Positions 1,649-56,434 of a stretch of DNA of 64,000 nt are shown piece by piece (position 1 is the first letter of the stretch; each line of letters begins with the position of its first letter). Both the position numbers and the translations under genes were made by a program. The DNA lies in NCBI GenBank assembly GCA_002238505.1, contig MPMM01000002.1, forward strand, positions 124,001-188,000, given 5' to 3'. This stretch comes from SAR202 cluster bacterium bin22. GTDB lineage: Bacteria > Chloroflexota > Dehalococcoidia > Lucifugimonadales > UBA3495. The notes beneath the pieces are model-generated. The model worked only from the letters and a program-made list of their open reading frames with translations, did not search any database and was not told the DNA's origin.

Positions 1649-2344
1649 TTACCCTAAGTCATCCAGGCACTCCCGCACCGGTTTGGCGAGGCAGGTGAAG
1701 ATGGGGGTGTCGCGCTCGGTGTAGGGGCGGGCTTCGGAGTTGCGGAGATCCATTACCAAGTCCAGGAAGGTGCCGGGGTGGTCGGTTTCGAAGCCTAGGA
1801 CGAATTCCTGGTCGTCGAGGCCGAAGGAGTAGGACGTGCTGATTTTGACGTCGGGGTACTTGTGGCCAATGACGAAGTGTTCGCTCATCATCCGCTGCCG
1901 CTCTTCCTGGGGCTGCTGGTACCAGTCGTGGGTCTTGACGAAGGGATAGACGAAGAGATACTTGCGGCCCACGATGCGCATGGTGGCTGACGTCCCCTCC
2001 TGACCCTCGTGGCGGTGGTCGTCCACGTAGGGAGAGCGGCGGGTCATGGCCAGGTAGGAGTGGGGTGTGCTAAGGTAGCCGGCCAGTTCGGTACGGTTCA
2101 GCTGGGCCATCAGTTCGTCAATGGCTTCCAGGGAGCGGCTGACCTTCCACAGCATGAAGTCCACGTCGCCGCGGGTGCCGACCAGGCTGTAGCTGTTCAT
2201 GTCGATGCGGTCGGTGAACTCGCCGAGGGTGGCGGCAAATTCCGCCTTGCTGCGCGCCCTGGTTTCCGGTGGCAACTGCCGCCATTCGGGGGCCACCTTG
2301 TAGAAGGAATACTTTACGAAGTCCCGAGCCTCTTCCTGGGTCAT
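1649..2344 (-). CDS. Chlorite dismutase/HemQ-like heme protein (coproheme decarboxylase family)
   Basis: 231-aa member of the chlorite-dismutase superfamily, closest in appearance to HemQ/ChdC, which converts coproheme to protoheme in the last step of the coproporphyrin-dependent heme pathway. Family hallmarks are GRKYLFVYPFVKTHDWY (the catalytic-Tyr motif), the RQRMMSEHFVIGHKYP segment that holds the proximal His, and the C-terminal SFGLDDQEFVLGFE and LRNSEARPY...DTPIF stretches. The open frame extends to 2395, but the ATG at 2344 is preceded by GGGAGAAG at good spacing and matches the usual family N-terminus. No other heme genes are nearby. Alternative: a non-decarboxylating Cld-like peroxidase. 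Confidence 0.85.
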   Translation of the reverse strand: MTQEEARDFVKYSFYKVAPEWRQLPPETRARSKAEFAATLGEFTDRIDMNSYSLVGTRGDVDFMLWKVSRSLEAIDELMAQLNRTELAGYLSTPHSYLAMTRRSPYVDDHRHEGQEGTSATMRIVGRKYLFVYPFVKTHDWYQQPQEERQRMMSEHFVIGHKYPDVKISTSYSFGLDDQEFVLGFETDHPGTFLDLVMDLRNSEARPYTERDTPIFTCLAKPVRECLDDLG

Positions 2345-2408
2345 CTGCAACTTCTCCCGCCTGCTTTCATTGTTTTCGTCCCTTGATGATAGCAACCCTT
2401 AACCGTCT

Positions 2409-7153: not shown

Positions 7154-7600
7154 ATGACGTACACATGGGACAGGGCCAAGGTGGGCGACACCGCGCCTCC
7201 TTCCTCTCGGGTATTAGCCGACGTGGAGATTGCGGAATACTGCCGGGCCGCCCGCTACGAGAACCTGGTATATACCAACCAGCCGGCAGCGCAGGAAACC
7301 GGCCTGCCTGGCATAGTCGCGCCTCCTGCCATGATTCTGGCCATCGCCCAACCCCAGTTGGCGGATCTGGCAGCCGGGCAGAGGTGCGACCTGCCCGCCT
7401 CCCTTTCCCTGAACCCCACCGCCATAACCATCCGCTACCAGGGAGTTTTTGTACGACCTGAGGATGTAATTGCTTCCCAAACCTGCGTCGCCAGCAAGGA
7501 AGAAAGGGAAGAAAAGCGCTACCTGACTTTTACGGTGAAAGTCCATAACCAGGATGGGCAATTGGTGGCGGAGTATGACGTTGAGTATATGTGGGAGTAG
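7154..7600 (+). CDS. MaoC-like hotdog-fold dehydratase
   Basis: 148-aa single hotdog domain. It resembles the N-terminal MaoC/FAS1-type dehydratase: VGDTAPPSSRVLADVEIAEYCRAARYENLVYTNQPAAQ, the PGIVAPPAMILAIAQPQL core helix, and the TITIRYQGVFVRPEDVIASQTCV beta strands. Such proteins hydrate or dehydrate enoyl-CoA or related thioesters. The exact catalytic Asp/His pair is not clear, so activity is uncertain. It lies directly after the PPOX gene and before the TPP enzyme on the same strand, a possible short operon. Confidence 0.72.
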   Translation: MTYTWDRAKVGDTAPPSSRVLADVEIAEYCRAARYENLVYTNQPAAQETGLPGIVAPPAMILAIAQPQLADLAAGQRCDLPASLSLNPTAITIRYQGVFVRPEDVIASQTCVASKEEREEKRYLTFTVKVHNQDGQLVAEYDVEYMWE

Positions 7601-7785
7601 CGAGGGGAAAACGGATAGACGGATAGCGCGTGGCGCGCGTGTCCCCGCCAGCCTGGCGCAACAGGTCATTGATTTAATCGGCTGGCCGCATTTTTCGTCA
7701 CAGGGTGAGTCGCCACATCTGCTGGGAAGAAAACCCCGTTTCCTCTCAGCCGTACAGCAAATCCACATTCAGGAGGCACAATAGA

Positions 7786-9435
7786 ATGGACGGCATAACT
7801 GCAATCGCCAACGTATTGAAACTGGAAGGGGTGGACTTTGTCGGCTGTATGCCATCCAGTCCTCTCATTGAAGCGGCCGCCGTGGCTGGTATCCGGCCCA
7901 TTGTCGTGAGACAGGAGCGGACCGGTGTGCACATGGCCGACGGGTTTTCCCGGATCAACAACGGCAAGCGCACGGGCATTTTCCTGATGCAAGCCGGACC
8001 TGGAGCCGAGAATGCCTTTGGCGGGGTGGCCCAGGCCTACGCCGACTCGGTGCCAATTCTCCTGCTGCCGGCCGGCGCGGGTCGGCACCGGCAGGGGATT
8101 GACCCGGTGTTCAGTCCCACCCGCAGCTACGAAAGCATCACCAAGTGGGCTGCCCAGATCAATTATGCCGACCGGGTTCCCGAACTGATGCGCCAGGCCT
8201 TTACCAGGCTTCGGTCCGGCAAGCCGGGGCCGGTGCTGCTGGAAATTCCCGGTGACCTCATATCCGAGGACATCAGCGAGGAGCAGTTCGACTACCAGCC
8301 ACCGGAAGGAATGCGCACTGCCGGTGACCCCGAGGCCGTGGCCCGCGCGGCCCGTGCCCTCCTTTCCGCACAGCGGCCGGTAATCACTGCCGGACAGGGC
8401 GTTCTGTATGCTGAGGCCACCGACCAGTTGGTGGAACTGGCTGAATACCTGCAGATTCCGGTAATGACGACGCTGGAGGGCAAGAGCGCTTTTCCTGAGA
8501 ACCACCCCCTGTCCCTGGGGATTGGCGGTTCCAGCCAGACAGGCCAGGTGCACCGCTTCCTTACCGGAGCAGATACGGTATTTGCGGTAGGGGCCAGCAT
8601 GATCAAGAGCAACTTTACTGCGCCTCTGCCGCCGGGCAAGACTCTTATCCACACCACCAACGCCGATGTGGATATCAACAAGGACTACAGGGCCGACTAC
8701 CCGGTGGTGGGCGATGCCAGGCTGGTGCTGGGCCAGTTCCTGGAGGAAATCAAGCGGCAGACGGGCGGCCAGGCTCGTCCTGCCAATCGCGAGCTTACCG
8801 ACGAGATTGCCGCTACCCGTCAGGAGTGGCTGGACCAGTGGCTGGCCCGCCTGACCTCCGATGAGGTCCCCCTGAATCCGTACCGGGTTATCTGGGAAAT
8901 CATGCACACGGTGGACCTGAATAACACCATCGTCACCCACGAGTCTGGCAGCCCGCGAGAGCAGGTCTCGGCCTTCTGGGAAGCGCGAGACCCGCGCAGC
9001 TTTATTGGCTGGGGCAAGTCCACCCAGCTGGGCTATAGCCTGGGCCTGGCCATGGGCGCCAAGTTGGCCGCCCCGGAAAAGATGGTGATTAACTTCATGG
9101 GCGACACGGCCTTCGGAATGGTGGGCCTGGACGTGGAGACGGCGGTGCGCGAAGGAATCGCAATAACCACCGTGGTTTTGAACAATAACACCATGGCCAT
9201 TTACCCGGACAGCCGGATGCCCACTGCCGTGTCCCGATACCACACCAAGGAGACGGGCGGGAATTACGCCGATATGTCACGGGCCATGGGTGCGTGGGCC
9301 GAGCGGGTTACCGACCCGGACCAGATCGGCCTCGCTATGCGCCGGGCCCAGGAACGGAACGAGGCCGGCGAATTTGCCCTGCTGGAGTACATAACCAAGG
9401 AGGAAGGGGCCTACTCCAAGTACCAGTTTGTTTAG
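7786..9435 (+). CDS. Thiamine-pyrophosphate-dependent enzyme (acetolactate synthase/decarboxylase-like)
   Basis: 549-aa enzyme of the POX/AHAS family. The N-terminal PYR domain carries the activating Glu in VVRQERTGVHMADGFSR. A central domain with VITAGQGVLYAEATDQLVELAE follows. The C-terminal PP domain holds the metal/TPP motif GDTAFGMVGLDVETAVREG...VVLNNN. The start at 7786 has a perfect AGGAGG. The substrate is unknown; no regulatory acetolactate-synthase subunit or isoleucine/valine genes are near, so a 2-oxoacid decarboxylase or lyase role outside branched-chain synthesis is more likely. Confidence 0.87.
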   Translation: MDGITAIANVLKLEGVDFVGCMPSSPLIEAAAVAGIRPIVVRQERTGVHMADGFSRINNGKRTGIFLMQAGPGAENAFGGVAQAYADSVPILLLPAGAGRHRQGIDPVFSPTRSYESITKWAAQINYADRVPELMRQAFTRLRSGKPGPVLLEIPGDLISEDISEEQFDYQPPEGMRTAGDPEAVARAARALLSAQRPVITAGQGVLYAEATDQLVELAEYLQIPVMTTLEGKSAFPENHPLSLGIGGSSQTGQVHRFLTGADTVFAVGASMIKSNFTAPLPPGKTLIHTTNADVDINKDYRADYPVVGDARLVLGQFLEEIKRQTGGQARPANRELTDEIAATRQEWLDQWLARLTSDEVPLNPYRVIWEIMHTVDLNNTIVTHESGSPREQVSAFWEARDPRSFIGWGKSTQLGYSLGLAMGAKLAAPEKMVINFMGDTAFGMVGLDVETAVREGIAITTVVLNNNTMAIYPDSRMPTAVSRYHTKETGGNYADMSRAMGAWAERVTDPDQIGLAMRRAQERNEAGEFALLEYITKEEGAYSKYQFV

Positions 9436-30085: not shown

Positions 30086-30745
30086 ATGACCACGCCAACC
30101 AAAACCCCCGCGCAGACGGCAAAATCGGAAGCTAAAGAGTTCCCCAAGACCCGCAAGTTCACCGTGGGAGAGTACTACCGCATGGCGGAGGTGGGAATTC
30201 TGCACCCTGATGAACGCGTCGAGCTTATCTGCGGAGAAATCGTGCTAATGGCCCCTATTGGTAATCCCCATGCCACCGGCGTACGCCGGATTGAAAGGTT
30301 TTTTAGCCGAGCACTGGGGGATGCCGTCACCATTAGCGGCCAGAATCCTGTCCTCGTGGGAGAGCATTCCACGCCCCAGCCGGATATTGCTGTCCTGCTG
30401 TTTCGTGAAGATGATTATTCCGGCAAATCGCCCAGCTCCGAGGATGTGCTGTTGCTCGTTGAAGTCTCCGACTCCACCCTGGCCTACGATCGGGAGGTCA
30501 AACTCAGTCTCTACGCCCAGGCCAGTATCCCCGAAACCTGGATAATGAACCTGGTGGACGACTGCATTGAGTCGTTTACCGAACCGGGCCCCGATGGATA
30601 TTCCCGGAATACCGTTTACCGGCGCGGCGACCGGATCGCGCCGTCCACGGTGGCTGATGTGGAGTTTGAGGTGGAGGACTTGCTGCCGCCGGTCCCCCTG
30701 TCCACCGATTCTGAAATTCAGAACGAAGGGGAGTCGGGGGCCTGA
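30086..30745 (+). CDS. Uma2 family (PD-(D/E)XK-like) protein
   Basis: 219-aa Uma2/DUF820 protein, a predicted restriction-endonuclease-like fold abundant in cyanobacteria and Chloroflexota. Motifs: YYRMAEVGILHPDERVELICGEIVLMAPIGNPH near the N-terminus, then the catalytic-type STPQPDIAVL and DVLLLVEVSDSTLAYDREVKLSLYAQASIPETWI. The D...E-x-S core residues are intact. The biological role of the family is unclear. No partner gene is next to it. Confidence 0.87.
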   Translation: MTTPTKTPAQTAKSEAKEFPKTRKFTVGEYYRMAEVGILHPDERVELICGEIVLMAPIGNPHATGVRRIERFFSRALGDAVTISGQNPVLVGEHSTPQPDIAVLLFREDDYSGKSPSSEDVLLLVEVSDSTLAYDREVKLSLYAQASIPETWIMNLVDDCIESFTEPGPDGYSRNTVYRRGDRIAPSTVADVEFEVEDLLPPVPLSTDSEIQNEGESGA

Positions 30746-30801: not shown

Positions 30802-31731
30802 TTACTTCTCAGACCTCTCCGCCAATATTGCTCCGTAGTCCTCCCGCCGCCACCGGTAGGGTGACGCCACTATCTTGCCCGGTTCTGTAGCTGTTGCCAG
30901 CACCTGGAGGGCGTCTTCCAGCACCACCCGTTGCTGTTGGGGGTTGCCAGGGGCGCCGAAGGGGCGGCCGAAAGGGAAGCGCAGGATGAGGCCCCTGGGC
31001 ACAGACATGGTGGCCGCTTTCTGCCGGTCCACCATTACCACCACCGTGGGTACGCCGGCCGATTCAATGGCCCGGGCTATCAGTCCGCCGGACTGATGGC
31101 AGCGGGGTCAAGTGGTGCCGATGACGGCGCCGTCCACCTCTTCGTCTTTAAGGCGCTGGGCCACCTCCGGGGCAGTGACTTCTATAAGGCCGGCCACGTC
31201 TCGGATGTAGCCCATGAAGCTGTAAGTGGGGCTCTGGGCCTCGCCCACAACACCTTCGGCCGCCAGTTCCTGCAGGCGGTGGATGGCAAAGACCGCATCC
31301 ACGTCCTCGGCCACGCCAACCGTGTCGTAATGGGTGTGGGCCACCCTGAAATCTTCCAGGGGCGTATCCAGGGGAATCTCCCGGTAGCTGTGGTCGCCGT
31401 CGACGTTGAAAGGTTCCTGGTCGCAGGTGTGGATGCCGCCGGTGGTAAGGACCGCGATGCGGGCTTGGGAGAGGGACTTGGTAAATGGCGCCCAGGGCGC
31501 GGTATCGAAGGCCAGGGGCAGTTCCAGGCGGTCGGTGAGGATTTCTTCCCAGCGGTTCAGGAACTGTTCCACCGGTCGCCAGTCATCCTCCTCCTTTGCC
31601 AGGGCTGCCAGGTTAAAGAGTTCGTTCATGAAGCGGGTGACGTCCTCTTCCGATTGACGCACCAGGTACTTCAGCCGGGAGAAGGGAGTGGTCTCGGGGT
31701 TTCTTACCAGGTCACGCAGGTCAATAGGCAT
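30802..31731 (-). CDS. GrdB-like selenoprotein (glycine/sarcosine/betaine reductase selenoprotein B family)
   Basis: 309 aa when the TGA at 31108-31110 is read as Sec at residue 208. The upstream part has the family motifs AVLTTGGIHTCDQEPFN, GDHSYREIPLDTPLEDFRVAHTHYD and DAVFAIHRLQELAAEGVVG. It ends in GAVIGTT, then Sec, then PRCHQSGGLIARAIESAGVPTVVV, where relatives have Cys in a CPxCH motif, and runs on to a TAA at 30802. A hairpin with an 8-bp stem follows the TGA. CAGGAG precedes the ATG. No GrdA, GrdC/D/E or thioredoxin partners are present, so it is probably not the classical glycine reductase but a stand-alone redox or C-S/C-N-acting relative. The antiporter gene ends 46 nt upstream on the same strand. 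Confidence 0.92.
31079..31097 (-). promoter_or_regulatory. Candidate bacterial SECIS hairpin, GrdB-like gene
   Basis: ATCAGTCC-GGC-GGACTGAT is a perfect 8-bp stem with a GGC loop. It begins 10 nt after the TGA, placing the loop 19-21 nt downstream. Loop sequence and distance match those of the two rhodanese hairpins although the stem sequence is unrelated. Confidence 0.83.
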
Positions 31732-31777
31732 CGTGTAACTCCTGCATAAAATAAGGTTAGGCGTTCGCAACTGCGCT

Positions 31778-33421
31778 TTAGATGTCGCGTCCACCGGCAG
31801 TCAAAAGAATCATCTCCAGTATCTCATAGCTGGATATGGAGCCCTCGAAGTCCCCGGTATCCGGGTCCACGACGGGAAAGACGGTAAGGGAACTGTCCAG
31901 CATGCGCTGCAGGGCATCCTCCACCAACTCATTGGGGGAGGCGGTGGGAGTGCCCTGGCGCAATACCTCCACCAGGGTAGTGTTGCCCCACTGGCTCCTG
32001 GGCAGGTATCGCAGGAAACTCAGGGAGACTACGCCGGCAAGCTGGGAGCCGTCAACCACTACGTAGTCATGCTGCTCCGACGTGGTCCAGTGTTCCACAA
32101 AATTCCGCACGGTGATGGACTGGTCCGGGTAGATGCGAGTATGGTCCAAAACATCCTCAACATGGACGTCGCCCAGGACGAAACGGTCCAGTAAGTGGGG
32201 TATGTCGCTGTCGTCGACATCTTCGGTGTGGCGTACCCTCCGGATTGCGAAGGTGATGCCCATGGGAGTCACCAGAATGTAACCGAACATGATCACCACC
32301 AGCAGGGAAAAGAGGGCTTCATCGATGACGTGCCCGTGCAGCATGACCAGCAGCAGGGCAATTTCAGCGACTCCCTTGGCCATCAGACCGCTGGCCACGG
32401 CGAATGGCGACTCCAGGCGGGTAATGTAAGCGCTGATGAAGGCGCCGGCGAACTTGGCGGCCAGGGGCACGAAGACCAGCGCGGCTATTACCTCCGGGTG
32501 CAGTTGCAGGAAGGTGAGGTTCAAGTTCAGTCCGGCCGAGGCAAAGAACAGGGGAACGAACAGTCCCTCGGCCGTGCTGCGCATTCCGGGCATGGAATCG
32601 TGTCTTAGCTGGTAGGGCAGGGGCGACAGGGCCGCTCCAAACAGCAGGGCGCCCAGGGAACCGTGCAGGCCCACCTTTTCGGCCGCCACTATTACCAGGA
32701 ACAGGCCGCCCAGAAGCAGCCCATAGGATAGCTGGGGAACCTGCAACACCCGGTGGAGCAACACCAGTACCCGGGGTATTACCTTGTTGCAGACCAGCCA
32801 GGTAACGATGGTGAAGGCAGCCAGTTCGCCAAGGAGAAGTAGGACGCTGGTGACCACATTAAGGCGGCCCTCCGACTCCAGGAAGGCGTGTTCGCTGATG
32901 GCGAATCCCACGATGAACAACACCAGAAGTTCGGCAATGACGACTCCGGTGAAGATCTGGATGCCCACCGGTTCCTTCAGCCGCTCTTCGTCGATAAGCA
33001 CCTTGGCCACGATGCCCAGGCTGGAGAGGGAAAGGACTCCCGCCACGGCCATGGCGTCGGTGAAGGCCAACCCCAGGCCCACGTCGAAAAGGACGTCGGT
33101 GGTTACCAGCATGGAACCCACCATAGAGATGGCCACCGAAAGGACTGCGGCAACGAAGAGTCTGCCCTTGATGGCAGATATGAAGCCGGAGATGTCCAGT
33201 TCGTCCAGGCCTACCAGGAAAAAGAAGACAAAAATGCCGATGTTCAGCAGGAGTTGTATGTCCTGGTTAGGTTCTACGAGGCCGGTTGCTGGCCCCAGGA
33301 TTACGCCGGCCACGGCATAGGCGAATATGGAATTGATGCCGATGCGCTTGAACAGCCCCTCCAGCAGCTTGGCTACCACCAGCAACAGACCTATGGCGAA
33401 TAATGCGTCAAATATTTCCAT
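31778..33421 (-). CDS. CPA2-type cation/proton antiporter with CBS domains
   Basis: 547 aa. About 12 membrane helices fill residues 1-390, with the Na+/H+-exchanger core (GVILGPATGLVEPNQDIQLLLNIGIFVFFFLVGLDELD; AFTDAMAVAGVLSLSSLGIVAKVLIDE; VPLFFASAGLNLNLTFL). A cytoplasmic tail (about 410-545) carries a CBS pair (HVEDVLDHTRIYPDQSITVRNFVEHW; ELVEDALQRMLDSSLTVFPVVDPDTGDFEGSISSYEIL). It probably exchanges K+ or Na+ for protons under nucleotide or ionic control through the CBS module. AAAGGAA precedes the ATG. The GrdB-like selenoprotein gene follows at 46 nt, so the two are likely co-transcribed. Confidence 0.9.
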   Translation of the reverse strand: MEIFDALFAIGLLLVVAKLLEGLFKRIGINSIFAYAVAGVILGPATGLVEPNQDIQLLLNIGIFVFFFLVGLDELDISGFISAIKGRLFVAAVLSVAISMVGSMLVTTDVLFDVGLGLAFTDAMAVAGVLSLSSLGIVAKVLIDEERLKEPVGIQIFTGVVIAELLVLFIVGFAISEHAFLESEGRLNVVTSVLLLLGELAAFTIVTWLVCNKVIPRVLVLLHRVLQVPQLSYGLLLGGLFLVIVAAEKVGLHGSLGALLFGAALSPLPYQLRHDSMPGMRSTAEGLFVPLFFASAGLNLNLTFLQLHPEVIAALVFVPLAAKFAGAFISAYITRLESPFAVASGLMAKGVAEIALLLVMLHGHVIDEALFSLLVVIMFGYILVTPMGITFAIRRVRHTEDVDDSDIPHLLDRFVLGDVHVEDVLDHTRIYPDQSITVRNFVEHWTTSEQHDYVVVDGSQLAGVVSLSFLRYLPRSQWGNTTLVEVLRQGTPTASPNELVEDALQRMLDSSLTVFPVVDPDTGDFEGSISSYEILEMILLTAGGRDI

Positions 33422-39079: not shown

Positions 39080-40305
39080 ATGCAGTTTGGGCTTTTGTTT
39101 GAGTGCCAGCGGCCCTATGAGGGTACTGAAATTGACTGGAACTCGCTGTACAAGGAAACCCTGGCCCAGTGCGAACTGGCCGACCAGGTCGGGTTCGACA
39201 ACCTGTGGTTCGTCGAGCACCACTTCCTCACCGGCTTTTCCGGTTCGCCCAGCCAGGACGCCATGTTCGGCGCGCTGAGCCGCATCACCAAGAACATCCG
39301 CATTGGCTACGGCGTCTGCATCCTGCCTTACCACCATCCCGTGCGCGTCGCCGAGCGGGTTGCGCTGGTTGACCAGCTTACCGACGGACGCGTGGAGTTC
39401 GGCACCGGCCGCTCCAATGCCTACGAGCAGACGGGCCTGGGCGTGGACCCCCGCAACACCCGCTCCCTGTGGGAAGAGTCCATCGCCATGCTGCCCCAAA
39501 TCTGGCAGTCGGACGAGTTCGAGTGGGAGGGCGAGCACTGGCAGGTACCGAAGCGGCGGGGGCTGCCCCAACCCCTCCAGCAACCCCCTCCCCGCACTTA
39601 CCCAAGCCCGTCCAGCAGCCCCATCCCCGCATGTACCTGGCCTGCACCCAGCAGGACAGCTTCCGGCTGGCCGCGGAAAAGGGCCTGGGCGTACTGTCTT
39701 CCGCCTCCTACGCCACCTCGGTGCTGGCCGAGCAGGTCAAGGTTTACCGGGATGCCCTGAAGAACGTCAACCCGGTTGGCGCCTTCGCCACCGAGTTCTG
39801 GGGCAACAACGTTCACGCCTACTGCGGCACCGACAACGACGAGGCGCGGGAACTGGCCGCCCTGTCAATGAAGACTTTCTTTGGCCCCGACAAGCCCTAC
39901 ATTGCGGGTCGCATCGGCGCCTACGAGGAACTGCTGGAGGCCTGGGGCGGCGTCCCTGACCACTTGCAGGCCGACTTTGGCCGGTGGCTGCGCCAGTCCG
40001 ACGAGGCCCACCGGGCCCAGGCCGAGGAATCGGGCATCTCCCTGGACGCTGGCCCCGGCGCCGCCCGGGCCGCCATCGCCCAGCTGGACGCCAACACCCT
40101 GGCCGACCGGGGCGTCATCATCGCTGGCGACCCCGACAGCTGCGCCACCGCCGTCCAGATGTACGAGGACATTGGCGTGGACCAGGTTATGATGATCATG
40201 CAGACGGAGACCATCCCTCACGAGAAGGTGATGTCTTCCATCGAGCTGTTCGGCAAAGAGGTTATACCCCGCTTCCGCAATGGCAACGGCGGCAACGGCA
40301 AGTAG
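39080..40305 (+). pseudogene. LLM-class flavin-dependent oxidoreductase, frameshifted
   Basis: Two frames together make one complete LLM protein. Frame 1 from the ATG at 39080 (AAGGAGG upstream) runs MQFGLLFECQRPYEGTEIDW to GEHWQVPKRRG. Frame 2 continues LPKPVQQPHPRMYLACTQQDSF to IELFGKEVIPRFRNGN and stops at 40305. The break is an imperfect 35-nt tandem duplication (39563-39597 and 39598-39632): the first unit encodes LPQPLQQPPPR in frame 1, the second LPKPVQQPHPR in frame 2. Removing one unit restores a full-length enzyme. Either a real disabling mutation or an assembly artefact that joined two strain variants. Confidence 0.8.
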
Positions 40306-49020: not shown

Positions 49021-49033
49021 GGGAGGAGTGGGT

Positions 49034-52000
49034 ATGCACCACAGGCCAATCGCTGGCACTACTCTATTTCCAATACTCGCAATTACTTTAGCCATTTTCG
49101 CAACCATTGGCCTGGCAATTCTGCTGTCAGGCCCGGTATTTGCCCAGAATAACGCCCCAGTATTCACTGAAGGCGAAACCGCCACCCGCTCGGTTAATGA
49201 GAACACCTCCTCGTACACCAACATCGGCGCACCGATTACTGCAACTGACGACGACCAGGATGACGTGGTCTATTCCATTCAGGACGGCGCTAAGACTCAC
49301 TTCGGCATTGACCCGTCCACGGGCCAGCTGTGGGTTGGCAACGAGCTGGACTATGAGTTTGAGAAGAGCTTCTCGGTGGTGGTGGTGGCCACCGACCCAG
49401 ATGGGGACGACGACGCTATCACCGTTACGATCACTGTTAATGACCTGGAGGAGGCTGGAAAAGTTACTCCCGACTGGCTGCGGCGGACTCAGGTCAATAA
49501 CAAGGTTACCGTGACCCTCTCCGACCCGGACGGCAGCGTATCCAGCGTTACCTGGCAGTGGTCCATTTCAACCAGCGCAACCGGCACCTTTACCGACATA
49601 AGCACCGCCACGACCGACAGCTACACTCCGGCTGCCTCCGATGCAACCAAGTTCCTGAAAGCAACAGCCACTTACACCGACAGCCGGGGTTCCGGCAAAA
49701 CGGCATCGATGGACCCCGCCATTTATGTGCGTGAGACACCGGACACCAACAACGCCCCGGTACTTTCCCCCGGAGAAAGCTTTCAATGCGGCGAGGATTC
49801 CTGCAAGCCCATCCATCCTTACTATCCGGTGGGTTCCTACATCTATAATCCCATCAGCGCGGCAGACGACGACCTTGGTGATAATTTTATTTACTCCATC
49901 TCGGGTCCTGATGCCCACCATTTTGAGATTGTCCAAGAGCGTACGTACGAATTTGCTGACCTGCTGACAAAAGCCACCCTGGATTACACGGCGAGCCGGT
50001 ACGAGGTACACGTAGAGGCCACTGACCTGAGCGGGGAAAAAGCTACAATGAAGCTGTTCCTCACTCCTCACATTCCCGGCGGCGACGCTGACGTGCCGGT
50101 GACGACGATCAAAGGGGTTGATAGATACCCTACAACTCGTGGCGTGTGGCTGGACTATTTCGAGAACTGTACCTGGCTGGTTGCGGATCTGGATACTGCC
50201 CGCCGGGACGGGAACCAAATGTCCGGTTGGAAGATTACCGGTCAGGATTCTGCCTACTTCACCATCGACAGCGACGGCATTCTGAACTTCAAGAAGCCGC
50301 CTGACTTCGACGCGCCCTCGGACGAGGATGGCAATAACGGGTACTCTATCCGGATTAGTCCCGATACAGGAGTCACTTACGAGAGTTCCCAGATAGACAT
50401 CACCGTCCGGGTTCAGGATGTGAGTGACGGCACTTCGGTGCAGGGTCCTGACCGGGTTTCCTTCAAGGAAAACGCCGCGGACGCCATCGGTACCTACACC
50501 GCTCCCAATTCCCAGACCCTCACGCTGTTCGGCACAGACGCCGATGACTTCCGGCTGGACAGCAACGGCGAACTGACCTTCATTAATCCGCCGGACTTCG
50601 AGACTCCAACCGATTCGGACGGGGACAATGTTTATGAGGTGTTCGTTGGGGTGACGCCGGAGGACGACACCGTCCAGGCCAGGTGCGTGTTCGTTACCGT
50701 AGCCGACGTCATTGAAGGCATTAACATCACTGGCGCGGACAGTCCTATAAACCACCCCGAGAACGACACCAACGCGGTGGATACCCTCACCGCCACTGAT
50801 CCCCAGAGAGGCAGCTTTAGCTGGACCATTTCCGGGGTTGACCGGGACCACTTCAGGCTGGACCTGTCCGGCGAAAGCGACGAGTACGCCAGCCTCCATT
50901 TCGACCCGACCCCCGACCACGAAGCCCCCAACGATGACGACGGGGACAATCATTACGAGATCACCTTGATCGCCTCCGCCAGCAGCAACGATGCCACCAG
51001 GGAAATTGAGATCAACGTTGTTGACGTAAACGAACCGCCAGTCTTTACCCGTGGAGAGGTTCTCAAGGACTTTGTGGAAGGCGACACTTCGGTGGTGGAA
51101 GACTACGACGCCGTGGACCCGGAAGGCGAGGACGTATCCTGGACGTTGGCGGGCGCCGATACCGACGACCTGGAAATAGACGCCGAGACGGGAGAACTGT
51201 CCTTCATCACTCCCCCTGACTACGACCAGCCTTCCAACGCCGGCAACGAGTATGTGGTGGACGTGGTGGCCACCGACGAGAGCGGCGTAAGCGCATCGAA
51301 GACGGTCACCGTGACCGTCACACCGGTGGACGAGCCCCCGGTCATCACCTACAACGGAAACACCGGCGACCAGACCATACTTTTTGACGAAAACGACACC
51401 TCGGCGGTGGGAACTTTTGTCGCCGCCGACCAGGACAGCAACACTATCACCTGGACCAAGTCCGGCGACGACGCATCCCTGTTCGCCCTCTCCAACGCCG
51501 GCGTGCTGAGTTTCATCTCGCCGCCGGATTATGAAGACGAAAGAGACCATGATACGGATAACGACTATGAACTGACTATAGAAGCATCGGACAGTGTCAA
51601 TGACGCAGAAATGAATGTTACGGTAAGGGTTGAGGACGTTGACGAAGATCCGGTGGTGACCGGCAATACCGGCCTTTCCGTTGTGGAAGGCAGCACGGGA
51701 AGTATCGCGAGCTACTCTGCTGAAGATCCCGAGGGATTAAGCACAAGCTGGGAAACCCCCACCGGGGACGACGGGAGCAAGTTCGAGATTTCTTCGGCCG
51801 GCAAGCTGTCCTTCAAGGCCGCGCCAGATTTTGAGACCCCGGGAAGCGCCGCCGGCACCAATGTGTACCAGGTTAAGGTAAACGCCAGCGACGGCACCAA
51901 CACCGGCAGCCTGGACGTTACCGTAACGGTGACCGGGGAGAACGAGACGATAGTCCGCGAGGGTACCTGGACGGCGTCCCGAGACTACCCGGAGAACAGC

Positions 52001-55000
52001 ACCGATACCGTTGCAACCTACAACGCCAGCGACCCGGAGGGCGTGGACATACAGTGGGACCTTGAAGGAAACGACGACGACAAGCTGTCCATCAGCAGCG
52101 CCGGTGTCCTGACTTTTAACACCATCCCGGACTTTGAGGACAAGAAGGACCACAACACCGACAACGTTTACGAAGTTACGGTGGTGGCCTCCGAGGGTGT
52201 GAACAAGGAGACCCAGGACGTCCGGATTACCGTAACCAACGTCAACGAGACACCGGTGCTCACTGTCGTGGAAGAGGTCACCTTCGCCGAGGGCAGTACG
52301 GGCACGGTTGTTACCTTCGAGGTTACAGACCCGGACGCCAATACCACGATCACGTGGTCTCTGTCCGGGGTTGACGCCGGCGATTTCAACGCCATCGCCA
52401 AGCCCACCAACGAACCGATGAAGGGACAACTGACCTTCAAGAATGCTCCGGACCGGGAAAACGCCGCCGACGCTAACATCGACAACGAGTACGAGATCAC
52501 GGTGAAGGCCACCGATGAGGGCAACGAATTTGATGAGATGGCCGTTACGATCATCGTATCGGACGAGGACGAGACGCCCACGCTTTCGGGCCCCACAGCT
52601 TTTGAGTGGCTGGAAAACGCCCAAACAACGGTCGCAACCTACGATGCGGCTGATCCAGAAGATGACGATATTGAGTGGGAACTGTTGGGGGATGATAAGG
52701 ACCTGTTCAACCTCACGGCCCAGTACACGGGCGCGTCAACGGCGCATCTCGCCTTCCGGTTCGCTCCGGACTTTGAGGAGTCGGACGCGGCAAAGCAGGA
52801 CCACGACAATGACGACGTCTATGAAATAACCATCCAGGCCACGGACGGCAACCCCAACCACGTTCAGACCATGGATGTGGCAATTACCGTAATCGACGTT
52901 AATGAAACGCCGGAGATTGGGGACATTACCATCGATGATTACGTGGAGAACGGGACGGGCGATGTGGGTGACTTCTCGGCTACCGACCCGGAAAATGACA
53001 CCCTGGAGTGGTCGCTGTCCGGCACGGACGACTCCTACTTCGACATAGACGACAGCACGGGGGTGCTCACTTTCAAGAGCCCGCCGGATTTCGAGCACGA
53101 GGTGAACGGGACCCAGAAGTACACCTATAACATCACGGTGCACGTCTCCGACGATGAGTTCACGGATGGGATGGACGTAACCATAACCGTGACCGACGTG
53201 GATGAGGATCCGGTGATTTCGGGGGAGACGGATGGCGACACCGCCGACCCCAACTTTGACCACGAAGAGAACGATGCGGCGCCGGTCCACCGGTTTTCTG
53301 CGGAAGACCCGGAGGGGACTGCAATAACCTGGGACCTGGAAGGGGTGGACGAAGCCCTGTTCAGTATCTCGGGTGGAGTGCTGGAATTCCTGAGCCCGCC
53401 TGACTTTGAAGACGCCAGGGACTCGGGTGGCAACAACGTCCACAACATCACGGTTAAGGTGACCGACAATACCGGTAACAGCGCCACACTGGTGGTAACG
53501 GTTACCGTCACCAACATTAACGAAGACCCTCAGTTCGACGCTGAAACCGCTACTGTATCGGTGGATGAAAACACGCCGGCCAACCGCAACATCGGCTCTC
53601 CGTTCAAGGCCACCGACGAGGACAGAGTGGACCGGCTTACCTACGACCTGAGCGGGACGGATGCCGCTTCCTTCGGCATGGTGGATAGCCACAGCACCGG
53701 GGCCCAGCTGCGTACCAAGGTGGCGCTGGATCACGAGACCAAGGACCAATACTCGGTGACCATCCTGGTGCGGGATGGGGTGGATGACACGGGAGACCCC
53801 AACGTCACGGCCGACGACACCATTAACATAACTATCAACGTCACCAACGTTGACGAAAACGGTGAAGTAACCCTGTCCAACGAGCAACCCGAGGAAGAGC
53901 AGCCCATAACCGCCAGCCTGGAAGACGATGACGGCGGCGTGACCAGCTTGACCTGGCAGTGGGCCACATCCTCCTCCAGGAGCGGTTCCTGGACCGACGC
54001 TACGGGCACGGGCACAACCAGCGCCACCTACACGCCGGTGACCGCTGATGTCAACAAGTACCTGCGGGCGACAGCGTCGTACACTGACGGCCAGGGCAGC
54101 GGCAAGACCGCCCACGGCATTGCCTCCAACAGGGTTGATCCCAGACCGCCGGACCCACAGCCGCCGGTGTTCTCGCAGGCCAGCGTAACCCGCCAGGTGG
54201 CTGAAAATGCTTCCATAGGTTCCAACGTGGGACGGCCGGTTACAGCGAGGGACCCCGAAGGAAAGGCATTGACCTATAGCCTGGAAGGGACGAATGCCGC
54301 CAGCTTCGACATAGTACAGTCCAGTGGGCAAATCCGGACCAAGGTAGCCCTGGACTATGAGACCAAGCAGAGTTACTCGGTAACTGTGAAGGCGACCGAT
54401 CCGTCCAACCTAACCGACACGATAGCGGTAACCATAAACTTGGTGGACGTCAATGAGCCGCCGGGTCGGGTGTCCATCAATACGGTTATGCCCAGTCCCG
54501 GGAATGAAAAGCGCGGCCTTATGGTCAAGTGGGAGCCACCGACGAACACCGGTCCGGGAATTAGCGGGTATAACCTGAAATACGCCCCAAAGGGATCAAG
54601 CAGCTGGCAGGAAGCCGAGTCGTCGGACACGGAGGAGGAGTTGACCGACCTGCTGCCGGACACGGAATACGTGGCTATGGTGAATGCCGAGAATGCGGAA
54701 GGAGAAGGCAGTTGGTCAGAGACGGGGGTGGGACGTACGGAAGCTAAACCCCAGGCCGAGTGGTTTGACCTGACAGCAAGCTTTGCTTCTTCCAGGTACT
54801 CGGTGAGGGAAGGCAACACGGTGACGATCAAGGTCAACCTGTCCCCGGCGGCGGACCGCCGTCAGTCCATTACCTTTGATGCTGCAAGCGAAACGGGCAC
54901 CAGCGCTATCTATGACATTCCATCCTCCGTAGGGTTTGTTCCAGGTGATGAGTCAATTGACCTGGTGTTCAGGGCGAATCATGATTCGGACAAGAGCAAT

Positions 55001-56434
55001 GAAACCGTGACAGTGTCCTTTGGCGCCAGCATGCCGACCAAGGTAACGGCAGGGACCATAGATTCGGTAACTGTGACGATTCGTGACGACGACAATGATC
55101 CACCTCCGCCTACGCGCCGGCCGGACCCGGCGCCGCAGCCAACGCCTACGCCGGCCCCGCCGTCCTTCCCGTCGCCGCCCAACACTGGGGGCGGAGGTGG
55201 CTTCAGTGGAGGTGGCTTCAGCGGTGGCAGCTTCGGCGGCGGCGGCAGCAGTGGCTCCTCCGGGGATCCCAACCGTCCGCCCTACTTTGAAGAGGGTGTA
55301 AGCACGTCCCGGGACGTGGAAGAACATACCGGGCTTGGCATATACATTGGCGACCCGGTAACGGCCATCGACCCGGATGGGGATGTACTGACGTACGGTC
55401 TGGGTGGAACCGATGCTGGCTCCTTCGCCCTGGACACGGCTACCGGCCAACTGATAACCCGGGCCACTCTGGACCTGGAAAGCAAGGCTGCCTATGAGGT
55501 AGTCATGACGGTGACCGATGGGCGGGGAGCTGTAGATGCCATAGAAGTCACCATAGATTTGACTGATGTACTGGAGGTGCCGATCTACAATCCGGCAACC
55601 CAGGCCTCCGGCAGGGTTGGGCCGGAAGACGTAACTACTGTTTGGACTCCTGACGGGTCCGCGGCGGTTACCTTCCCGGCAGGTTCCCGGTCCGGACATT
55701 ACTGGGTCAGAGTGGATTCGGCGTTGACGCGTTGTCCCTTTGACGCCGGTGATGAGGAGGTGCAGGCAGCCCTGGCCCTGGACTTCTTCGACAACTGGGG
55801 CACGCCGGAAACCGAGGTGGTGCTGATCAATGCGGCCACCATCCAGTTCCGTATGAAGGCCGAGGACTTCGGCAGCGCGGAGGTGGTGCGCGAGGCCCAG
55901 CGGCTGGGAGCGTTCACCGTATATGCCCGCGATTACGCAACCGGCGAGTGGAGACAGGTACAGTTCAGTTTCACCCTGGGTGACGATGGGTGGATAACCA
56001 TCAGGGTGTCGGGTCTGACGTCGCTGGACTGCTTCGTTTTGACGACGCTGGGGGCGCTGTTCGGCATTGTCGACCCGAGTCCGGAGGCTACACCGACACC
56101 GACGCCCACTCCGGCTCCCGGTGCGACTCCCGTACCCGCGACCCAACCGGAACCCACGCCTGAACCCGAGCAGCAAGGGATCAAGCTGCCACTGCTGATT
56201 CCGCAGGCGGTGGTCGAGGCGGGTGTCATAGTAACGCCTACTCCGCAGCCGGGGGCGTCGGCGGAATCTGAACCCACACCCGGGCCGCTATTGCAGGAAG
56301 CGCAACTGGTTCCGGAGACAGTGGACGAAGATGGGCTGTCGGTCTGGCCAATTTTGTTCATTGCGTTGGGTGCGGCTCTCCTGTCCCTCAGCTTATGGCT
56401 GTACTTCCGGGCCAGGCGTCGTCCCAGGTTCTAG
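49034..56434 (+). CDS. Giant cadherin-repeat cell-surface protein
   Basis: About 2,466 aa. A signal peptide (residues 1-38, ending near GPVFAQN) is followed by roughly 20 cadherin-like repeats. The common pattern is EN-x-T-x-x-V-x-x-Y-x-A-x-DPE-x-x-x-x-x-W-x-L-x-G-x-D-x-x-x-F, then LxFxxPPDFExxxDxDxDNxYxVTVxA. One fibronectin-III-like stretch (GISGYNLKYAPKGSSSWQEA) and a Calx-beta-like module (SRYSVREGNTVTIKVNLSPAADRR) precede a Gly/Ser linker and a last cadherin. A Pro/Thr-rich stalk and a C-terminal TM helix with a basic tail (LYFRARRRPRF) anchor it. Probably an adhesin or matrix protein. GGGAGG precedes the ATG at 49034; a GTG two codons earlier is less likely. Confidence 0.88.
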   Translation: MHHRPIAGTTLFPILAITLAIFATIGLAILLSGPVFAQNNAPVFTEGETATRSVNENTSSYTNIGAPITATDDDQDDVVYSIQDGAKTHFGIDPSTGQLWVGNELDYEFEKSFSVVVVATDPDGDDDAITVTITVNDLEEAGKVTPDWLRRTQVNNKVTVTLSDPDGSVSSVTWQWSISTSATGTFTDISTATTDSYTPAASDATKFLKATATYTDSRGSGKTASMDPAIYVRETPDTNNAPVLSPGESFQCGEDSCKPIHPYYPVGSYIYNPISAADDDLGDNFIYSISGPDAHHFEIVQERTYEFADLLTKATLDYTASRYEVHVEATDLSGEKATMKLFLTPHIPGGDADVPVTTIKGVDRYPTTRGVWLDYFENCTWLVADLDTARRDGNQMSGWKITGQDSAYFTIDSDGILNFKKPPDFDAPSDEDGNNGYSIRISPDTGVTYESSQIDITVRVQDVSDGTSVQGPDRVSFKENAADAIGTYTAPNSQTLTLFGTDADDFRLDSNGELTFINPPDFETPTDSDGDNVYEVFVGVTPEDDTVQARCVFVTVADVIEGINITGADSPINHPENDTNAVDTLTATDPQRGSFSWTISGVDRDHFRLDLSGESDEYASLHFDPTPDHEAPNDDDGDNHYEITLIASASSNDATREIEINVVDVNEPPVFTRGEVLKDFVEGDTSVVEDYDAVDPEGEDVSWTLAGADTDDLEIDAETGELSFITPPDYDQPSNAGNEYVVDVVATDESGVSASKTVTVTVTPVDEPPVITYNGNTGDQTILFDENDTSAVGTFVAADQDSNTITWTKSGDDASLFALSNAGVLSFISPPDYEDERDHDTDNDYELTIEASDSVNDAEMNVTVRVEDVDEDPVVTGNTGLSVVEGSTGSIASYSAEDPEGLSTSWETPTGDDGSKFEISSAGKLSFKAAPDFETPGSAAGTNVYQVKVNASDGTNTGSLDVTVTVTGENETIVREGTWTASRDYPENSTDTVATYNASDPEGVDIQWDLEGNDDDKLSISSAGVLTFNTIPDFEDKKDHNTDNVYEVTVVASEGVNKETQDVRITVTNVNETPVLTVVEEVTFAEGSTGTVVTFEVTDPDANTTITWSLSGVDAGDFNAIAKPTNEPMKGQLTFKNAPDRENAADANIDNEYEITVKATDEGNEFDEMAVTIIVSDEDETPTLSGPTAFEWLENAQTTVATYDAADPEDDDIEWELLGDDKDLFNLTAQYTGASTAHLAFRFAPDFEESDAAKQDHDNDDVYEITIQATDGNPNHVQTMDVAITVIDVNETPEIGDITIDDYVENGTGDVGDFSATDPENDTLEWSLSGTDDSYFDIDDSTGVLTFKSPPDFEHEVNGTQKYTYNITVHVSDDEFTDGMDVTITVTDVDEDPVISGETDGDTADPNFDHEENDAAPVHRFSAEDPEGTAITWDLEGVDEALFSISGGVLEFLSPPDFEDARDSGGNNVHNITVKVTDNTGNSATLVVTVTVTNINEDPQFDAETATVSVDENTPANRNIGSPFKATDEDRVDRLTYDLSGTDAASFGMVDSHSTGAQLRTKVALDHETKDQYSVTILVRDGVDDTGDPNVTADDTINITINVTNVDENGEVTLSNEQPEEEQPITASLEDDDGGVTSLTWQWATSSSRSGSWTDATGTGTTSATYTPVTADVNKYLRATASYTDGQGSGKTAHGIASNRVDPRPPDPQPPVFSQASVTRQVAENASIGSNVGRPVTARDPEGKALTYSLEGTNAASFDIVQSSGQIRTKVALDYETKQSYSVTVKATDPSNLTDTIAVTINLVDVNEPPGRVSINTVMPSPGNEKRGLMVKWEPPTNTGPGISGYNLKYAPKGSSSWQEAESSDTEEELTDLLPDTEYVAMVNAENAEGEGSWSETGVGRTEAKPQAEWFDLTASFASSRYSVREGNTVTIKVNLSPAADRRQSITFDAASETGTSAIYDIPSSVGFVPGDESIDLVFRANHDSDKSNETVTVSFGASMPTKVTAGTIDSVTVTIRDDDNDPPPPTRRPDPAPQPTPTPAPPSFPSPPNTGGGGGFSGGGFSGGSFGGGGSSGSSGDPNRPPYFEEGVSTSRDVEEHTGLGIYIGDPVTAIDPDGDVLTYGLGGTDAGSFALDTATGQLITRATLDLESKAAYEVVMTVTDGRGAVDAIEVTIDLTDVLEVPIYNPATQASGRVGPEDVTTVWTPDGSAAVTFPAGSRSGHYWVRVDSALTRCPFDAGDEEVQAALALDFFDNWGTPETEVVLINAATIQFRMKAEDFGSAEVVREAQRLGAFTVYARDYATGEWRQVQFSFTLGDDGWITIRVSGLTSLDCFVLTTLGALFGIVDPSPEATPTPTPTPAPGATPVPATQPEPTPEPEQQGIKLPLLIPQAVVEAGVIVTPTPQPGASAESEPTPGPLLQEAQLVPETVDEDGLSVWPILFIALGAALLSLSLWLYFRARRRPRF

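Follow-up and report, generated by a model that had tools for sequence, protein, structure and literature searches.

An orphan PrdB-like selenoprotein of a SAR202 cluster bacterium, probably active in the absence of a pyruvoyl partner

Background

The closest described relatives of the protein analysed here are PrdB, from the D-proline reductase of clostridia (TIGR04483), and GrdB, the protein B of glycine, sarcosine and betaine reductase. D-proline reduction, the activity assigned to PrdB-type selenoproteins, requires a partner subunit, and the pyruvoyl-forming partners, GrdE and PrdA, make up the family PF09338. In D-proline reductase, the selenolate is thought to attack a pyruvoyl-proline adduct, after which a thiol acts on the selenoether, both steps being debated (PMC10298544). 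PrdB-type selenocysteine (Sec) proteins have been reported since 2005 as a major Sec family of surface sea water (PMC1088965, PMC2398784): the Sargasso Sea survey counted 42 PrdB-type Sec genes (PMC1088965), and the GOS data contained 235 Sec versus 110 Cys PrdB homologues with the motif UxxC (PMC2398784). In later reviews, D-proline reductase/PrdB figures among the widespread bacterial selenoproteins (PMC9312934, PMC13188914). In our literature search, no paper was found that assigns PrdB-like proteins lacking PrdA a function.

We analysed a stretch of 64,000 nucleotides (hereafter the window) from SAR202 cluster bacterium bin22, in which a preliminary description had proposed an undescribed use of a GrdB-like Sec redox site, possibly tied to ion homeostasis. 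The sea-water surveys cited above mean that such proteins can no longer be called undescribed. The novelty is modest and consists of an N-terminally extended subfamily, together with evidence for working without the proline-reductase partner.

The gene and its coding status

The coding sequence runs on the minus strand from an ATG at 31731, through an in-frame TGA at 31110-31108, to a stop codon at 30804-30802 (Table 1). ORF calling with code table 11 splits it into two frames of 228 and 80 aa. The Sec site of the window protein has the motif U-P-R-C-H, and the string GTT-U-PRCHQSGGLIARA matches exactly. The claim that the sequence after the TGA is coding is confirmed: the 101 codons 3' of the TGA are homologous to those of the relatives, third-position GC is 0.75 both before and after the TGA, and the codon-position GC pattern is alike on the two sides. 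In comparison with the relative L042, dN/dS was 0.20 downstream of the TGA and 0.14 upstream (the upstream figure being near synonymous saturation), and closer pairs gave 0.05-0.12; as judged from these alignments, purifying selection acts on the codons after the TGA.

Table 1. Features of the PrdB-like selenoprotein locus and of its two flanking genes (window coordinates)
Feature	Position	Strand	Details and basis
PrdB-like selenoprotein CDS	30802..31731	minus	309 aa, Sec208; read-through translation, Pfam and NCBIfam matches
UGA read as selenocysteine, residue 208	31108..31110	minus	column is Sec or Cys in 58/58 orphan rows
Putative resolving cysteine Cys211 (UxxC motif)	31099..31101	minus	Cys in 58/58 rows
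bSECIS hairpin, 8-bp stem AUCAGUCC/GGACUGAU, GGC loop	31079..31097	minus	fixed position and covariation
N-terminal extension, ~77 aa, common to the clade of the window protein	31501..31731	minus	alignment, tree, model
CPA2-type antiporter, Na_H_Exchanger and CBS matches	31778..33421	minus	Pfam; judged outside the system, linkage not conserved
Uma2-family protein, convergent	30086..30745	plus	Pfam; not part of the system

A 272-aa ORF (30931-31749, plus strand) lies antisense to the gene, and similar antisense ORFs recur in the relatives; it is probably a codon-usage shadow of the sense gene. Promoter and terminator scans remained at chance level, an Rfam scan of the window gave no match and scans of viral contigs for relatives found none.

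Selenocysteine insertion

A search of 245 genomes from the class found relatives (E <= 1e-20) in 81. An in-frame TGA is present in 138 of the 140 listed stretches of the class, a few of them having another stop too; the two stretches without it are those of G057, which ends before the site, and G118, which has Cys. Sixty rows were read in detail (54 Sec and six Cys forms), comprising two clostridial PrdB and 58 orphan rows. The U-x-x-C motif carries TGA in all 54 Sec rows and Cys in the remaining six, in agreement with the earlier proposal that TGA stands in place of the motif Cys. Mapping of this column over the orphan rows gave Sec or Cys at position 208 without exception (58/58), and Cys211 is equally invariant.

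Directly past the UGA lies a textbook bacterial SECIS hairpin, ordered AUCAGUCC-GGC-GGACUGAU, its loop beginning with a G located 18 nt after the UGA. Of the 54 Sec rows, 45 have a hairpin by bSECIS-like rules, whereas synonymous shuffles would give about 20; among the six Cys rows there is one. The eight stem pairs are formed in 82% of the cells (53 distinct Sec rows), compared with 27-41% when the partner is slid, and changes affecting both sides of the stem were observed (CAGUCC/GGACUG to CACAC/GUGUG and GUGUC/GACAC). On the thermodynamic side the signal is slight, with a mean z-score of -0.73 for the region versus -0.22 for control stretches. Strong evidence for the SECIS comes instead from the hairpin's fixed position and from covariation.

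SelA, SelB and tRNA-Sec were all found in the genome of the window. Within the class, a SelA match is present in 70 of the 81 family-bearing genomes, versus 91 of the 164 others. Ten TGA-bearing genomes have no SelA match; since seven of these ten have SelB over the cut-off, the missing SelA genes are likely due to draft gaps. In G118, where alone in the class the relative has Cys, there is no SelA match and no SelB over the cut-off. The tree row nearest to its relative is a Sec form, so that a change from Sec to Cys is plausible in this genome. The SECIS, together with the Sec-to-Cys exchange in a relative from a genome in which neither SelA nor SelB was found, makes Sec use in this family a clean case. 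The reading of UGA 208 as selenocysteine, in a gene encoding a genuine selenoprotein, is strongly supported.

Family placement

The window protein matches the Pfam GRDB family (PF07355; 6.7e-12, 45.8 bits versus a cut-off of 22). Its best curated family is PrdB (TIGR04483; 2.8e-53, 180.8 bits), below the 300-bit cut-off; with the same model, a clostridial PrdB reaches 310 bits and the orphan relatives tested range from 76 to 202 bits. The GrdB model (TIGR01917) gives 64.9 bits (E 6.3e-18) versus a required 602, and the TIGR01918 subfamily is barely over its cut-off (66.4 versus 65.45 bits), close relatives being slightly under. In a maximum-likelihood tree of the 60 rows (midpoint root for drawing only), the window protein belongs to a ten-row clade (support 96/99); the clostridial PrdB rows branch elsewhere, still within the sampled family. 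Across the ten rows, the N-terminal extension is roughly 75 residues long, its first part being unrecovered in one row; it is modelled, with low confidence, as mostly helical. AlphaFold2 gave a pLDDT of 39 with one sequence and of 54.5 (pTM 0.56) with three sequences. A fold search with the weak three-sequence model returned nothing at E 0.001 or better, and the sole match in a profile search of solved structures was a designed protein, which was disregarded.

With PrdB, the window protein has in common Asp113, Arg117, His132, Asp143 and Arg246 in addition to U208/C211 (the UxxC motif), and it is about 34-38% identical to clostridial PrdB over the catalytic domain. It differs from PrdB by its score below the cut-off, by the absence of PrdA, by its N-terminal extension (~77 aa) and by its location outside a prd operon. 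GrdB has the Sec residue at the homologous position and the GRDB Pfam domain, and retains H132, D143, R246, Sec and Cys, but D113 and R117 differ; moreover, the window protein is devoid of the first half of GrdB (matches start at about profile position 182-208) and its genome has no GrdE-type match. Because D113 and R117 are shared with PrdB and not kept in GrdB, "PrdB-like" is, at the sequence level, a better name than the "GrdB-like" used previously. The latter was right as to the Sec site of the GRDB superfamily, but the protein is nearer to PrdB, as the E values of the two models indicate.

The Sargasso and GOS proteins resemble the window protein as a family (pfam07355, UxxC, Sec common, surface ocean), which does not imply clade membership of the reads. 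These reads were named "proline reductase", whereas the window protein scores below the PrdB cut-off, and no match to the partner family was obtained in its genome.

Relatives and additional copies

Cys relatives were found in Alphaproteobacteria (Chelatococcus, Roseomonas and Haematobacter). These proteins (L062-L065), annotated as "glycine/sarcosine/betaine reductase selenoprotein B family protein", have CxxC at the homologous site and are encoded outside a reductase operon; they differ from the window protein by Cys in place of Sec and by the missing SECIS hairpin. A genome-wide pattern scan, in which the Sec column was coded as a Cys codon, found two Cys relatives. At the phylum level, beyond the rows read in detail, there are further matches that have no TGA. 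The existence of Cys forms in culturable Alphaproteobacteria makes the function testable.

The genome of the window encodes another PrdB-like Sec protein, 399 aa long and extended by a long C-terminal tail (stretch L057, positions 7159-8358, from contig C39); the neighbours of its gene were named by eye as GNAT-like and alcohol-dehydrogenase-like ORFs. In another lineage (f28; L070, L071, L072 and L073), PrdB-like Sec proteins of ~443 aa with a C-terminal extension are encoded as tandem pairs or triplets, with up to five PrdB-like copies per genome; the SECIS stem is shorter in this lineage, and the short stem alone is retained in the tandem copies.

The missing pyruvoyl partner

Neither PF09338 nor PrdA (TIGR04480) gave a match in the genome of the window (draft, 97% complete), and a GrdE-type partner was thus not found. 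The positive control, the clostridial replicon W01, gave three PF09338 matches, one of them directly before prdB. The absence of PrdA is strong, though not absolute, the draft being 97% complete. In the window, no Grd or Prd genes adjoin the selenoprotein gene, and its location outside a glycine-reductase operon, as first described, is confirmed by these neighbours and by the lack of a PF09338 match.

Within the class, PF09338 is absent in 71 of 77 family-bearing genomes. In the three genomes that were examined out of the six with PF09338, a distant GrdB-like protein (~25-33% identical) is encoded beside the PF09338 gene, and since the two share the same stretch these loci look like separate complexes. 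Given the absence of PF09338 here and in 71 of 77 genomes, and exceptions of this kind, the orphan PrdB-like protein most likely functions with no partner of the pyruvoyl type. As the class relatives are mostly without the partner family, the name "PrdB" should not be taken as a function.

Genomic neighbourhood

The selenoprotein gene is a lone gene whose neighbours vary by lineage. In the window, a CBS-tailed antiporter gene lies, as originally noted, 46 nt upstream on the same strand (end at 31778; Na_H_Exchanger and CBS Pfam matches). Seven other genomes (G179, G221, G239, G006, G066, G132 and G186) have both a PrdB-like gene and a close antiporter homologue (59-62% identity in six genomes, 44% in G186), on different contigs in 7/7, the drafts being split into many contigs and several-kb flanks being read at most of these loci. 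The same holds in the genome of the window itself, where a second antiporter (C45) and the second PrdB-like gene (C39) are on separate contigs. None of the nine closest relatives (9/9) has an antiporter of this kind nearby; the genes beside them encode a pantoate-beta-alanine ligase, a ComA-like protein, an SDR, a luciferase-like monooxygenase, a 4Fe-4S protein, a methyltransferase with a beta-propeller/cytochrome protein, or unassigned ORFs. The linkage, whose conservation was in question, is therefore refuted as a conserved feature and is peculiar to this genome or nearly so, in view of the seven genomes in which both genes occur apart. The antiporter is an incidental neighbour, although the two genes may share a transcript in this genome.

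Ion transporters were seen in the vicinity of the family in three cases, namely the window antiporter, a CPA2 antiporter near L051 and trkG/trkA at L065. At L065 (5674-10269, on a Roseomonas plasmid), the Cys relative has the trkG/trkA potassium uptake genes on one side and SelO on the other, and there is no operon. A luciferase-like monooxygenase gene directly follows the PrdB-like gene at L049 (8944-9891) and L052 (1333-2247), with spacings of 28 and 54 nt; these adjacencies may be due to chance, since luciferase-like genes are common in these genomes.

Discussion

We consider that the protein is probably a stand-alone Sec-dependent thiol reductase from a PrdB-like branch of the GRDB superfamily, next to which the antiporter is incidental. 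In such an enzyme, the Sec selenolate would attack a small substrate (an electrophile, a peroxide or a disulfide); the resulting Se-S (or Se-C) intermediate would be resolved by Cys211, and the selenol regenerated by a general thiol donor, for example thioredoxin. A thiol-dependent reductase is the simplest reading because the U-x-x-C pair is invariant and no pyruvoyl partner was found, and we infer that the protein is neither a D-proline nor a glycine reductase.

A genuine PrdB or GrdB subunit acting in a Stickland-type pathway would account for the top curated match, for the shared catalytic-site residues and for the position of clostridial PrdB within the sampled tree. It is nevertheless very unlikely: the score is well short of the cut-off that clostridial PrdB passes, no Grd or Prd genes are adjacent, and PrdA and PF09338 gave no match in a genome searched with a working positive control, nor did PF09338 in 71 of 77 family-bearing genomes. 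The residues His132, Arg117 and Asp113 would also fit a PrdB-like C-N or C-X cleavage with another source of activation. A stand-alone enzyme with PrdB chemistry retained, cleaving a C-N, C-halogen or other C-X bond of a small carboxylate reductively and without a pyruvoyl partner, is unlikely but would explain why PrdB residues are conserved outside the UxxC motif; the scaffold may indeed be plastic, as C-F cleavage of fluoroacetate was proposed from transcriptomics for a GrdB/GrdE-type pair (PMC10838667). However, the known or proposed cases come with a GrdE/PrdA-type partner, and no substrate-linked gene is conserved beside the selenoprotein gene. In its more specific form, the idea is of a proline-reductase relative that, in aerobic-type bacteria, has no partner and performs Sec-based C-N/C-X cleavage on a substrate activated without a pyruvoyl group. 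This is likewise unlikely; if it were true, the common marine "PrdB" selenoproteins would bear the wrong name and catalyse a new reductive reaction.

The coupling to the antiporter suggested in the preliminary description, with redox control of ion homeostasis, draws on the same strand and 46-nt spacing, on a CPA2 antiporter (24% identical) ~1.4 kb from the L051 gene on the opposite strand, and on the adjacency of trkG/trkA to the alphaproteobacterial relative L065. With the two genes on different contigs in 7/7 genomes, the second copies of this genome also apart and unrelated neighbours in 9/9 closest relatives, we judge it highly improbable. A pseudogene or sequencing error in which the TGA is a genuine stop, as the two frames of 228 and 80 aa might suggest, is refuted by the TGA kept in 138 of 140 matches of the class, by the compensatory changes in the SECIS and by purifying selection past the TGA. 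The stand-alone thiol reductase remains our preferred reading.

Other genes of the window

The window also encodes luciferase-like monooxygenases, a chlorite-dismutase-family protein and a DAO-type flavoprotein, a gene content that fits an aerobic-type metabolism and does not prove it. The chlorite-dismutase-family protein (1649-2395, minus strand; Pfam 4.1e-56) is possibly of the HemQ type. One luciferase-like monooxygenase gene (39080-40305, plus strand) appears to be split, its frames 39080-39760 and 39469-40305 overlapping, and this points to a frameshift or a sequencing error near 39600. Finally, a 2,468-aa ORF with a good codon pattern extends from 49028 to 56434 on the plus strand.
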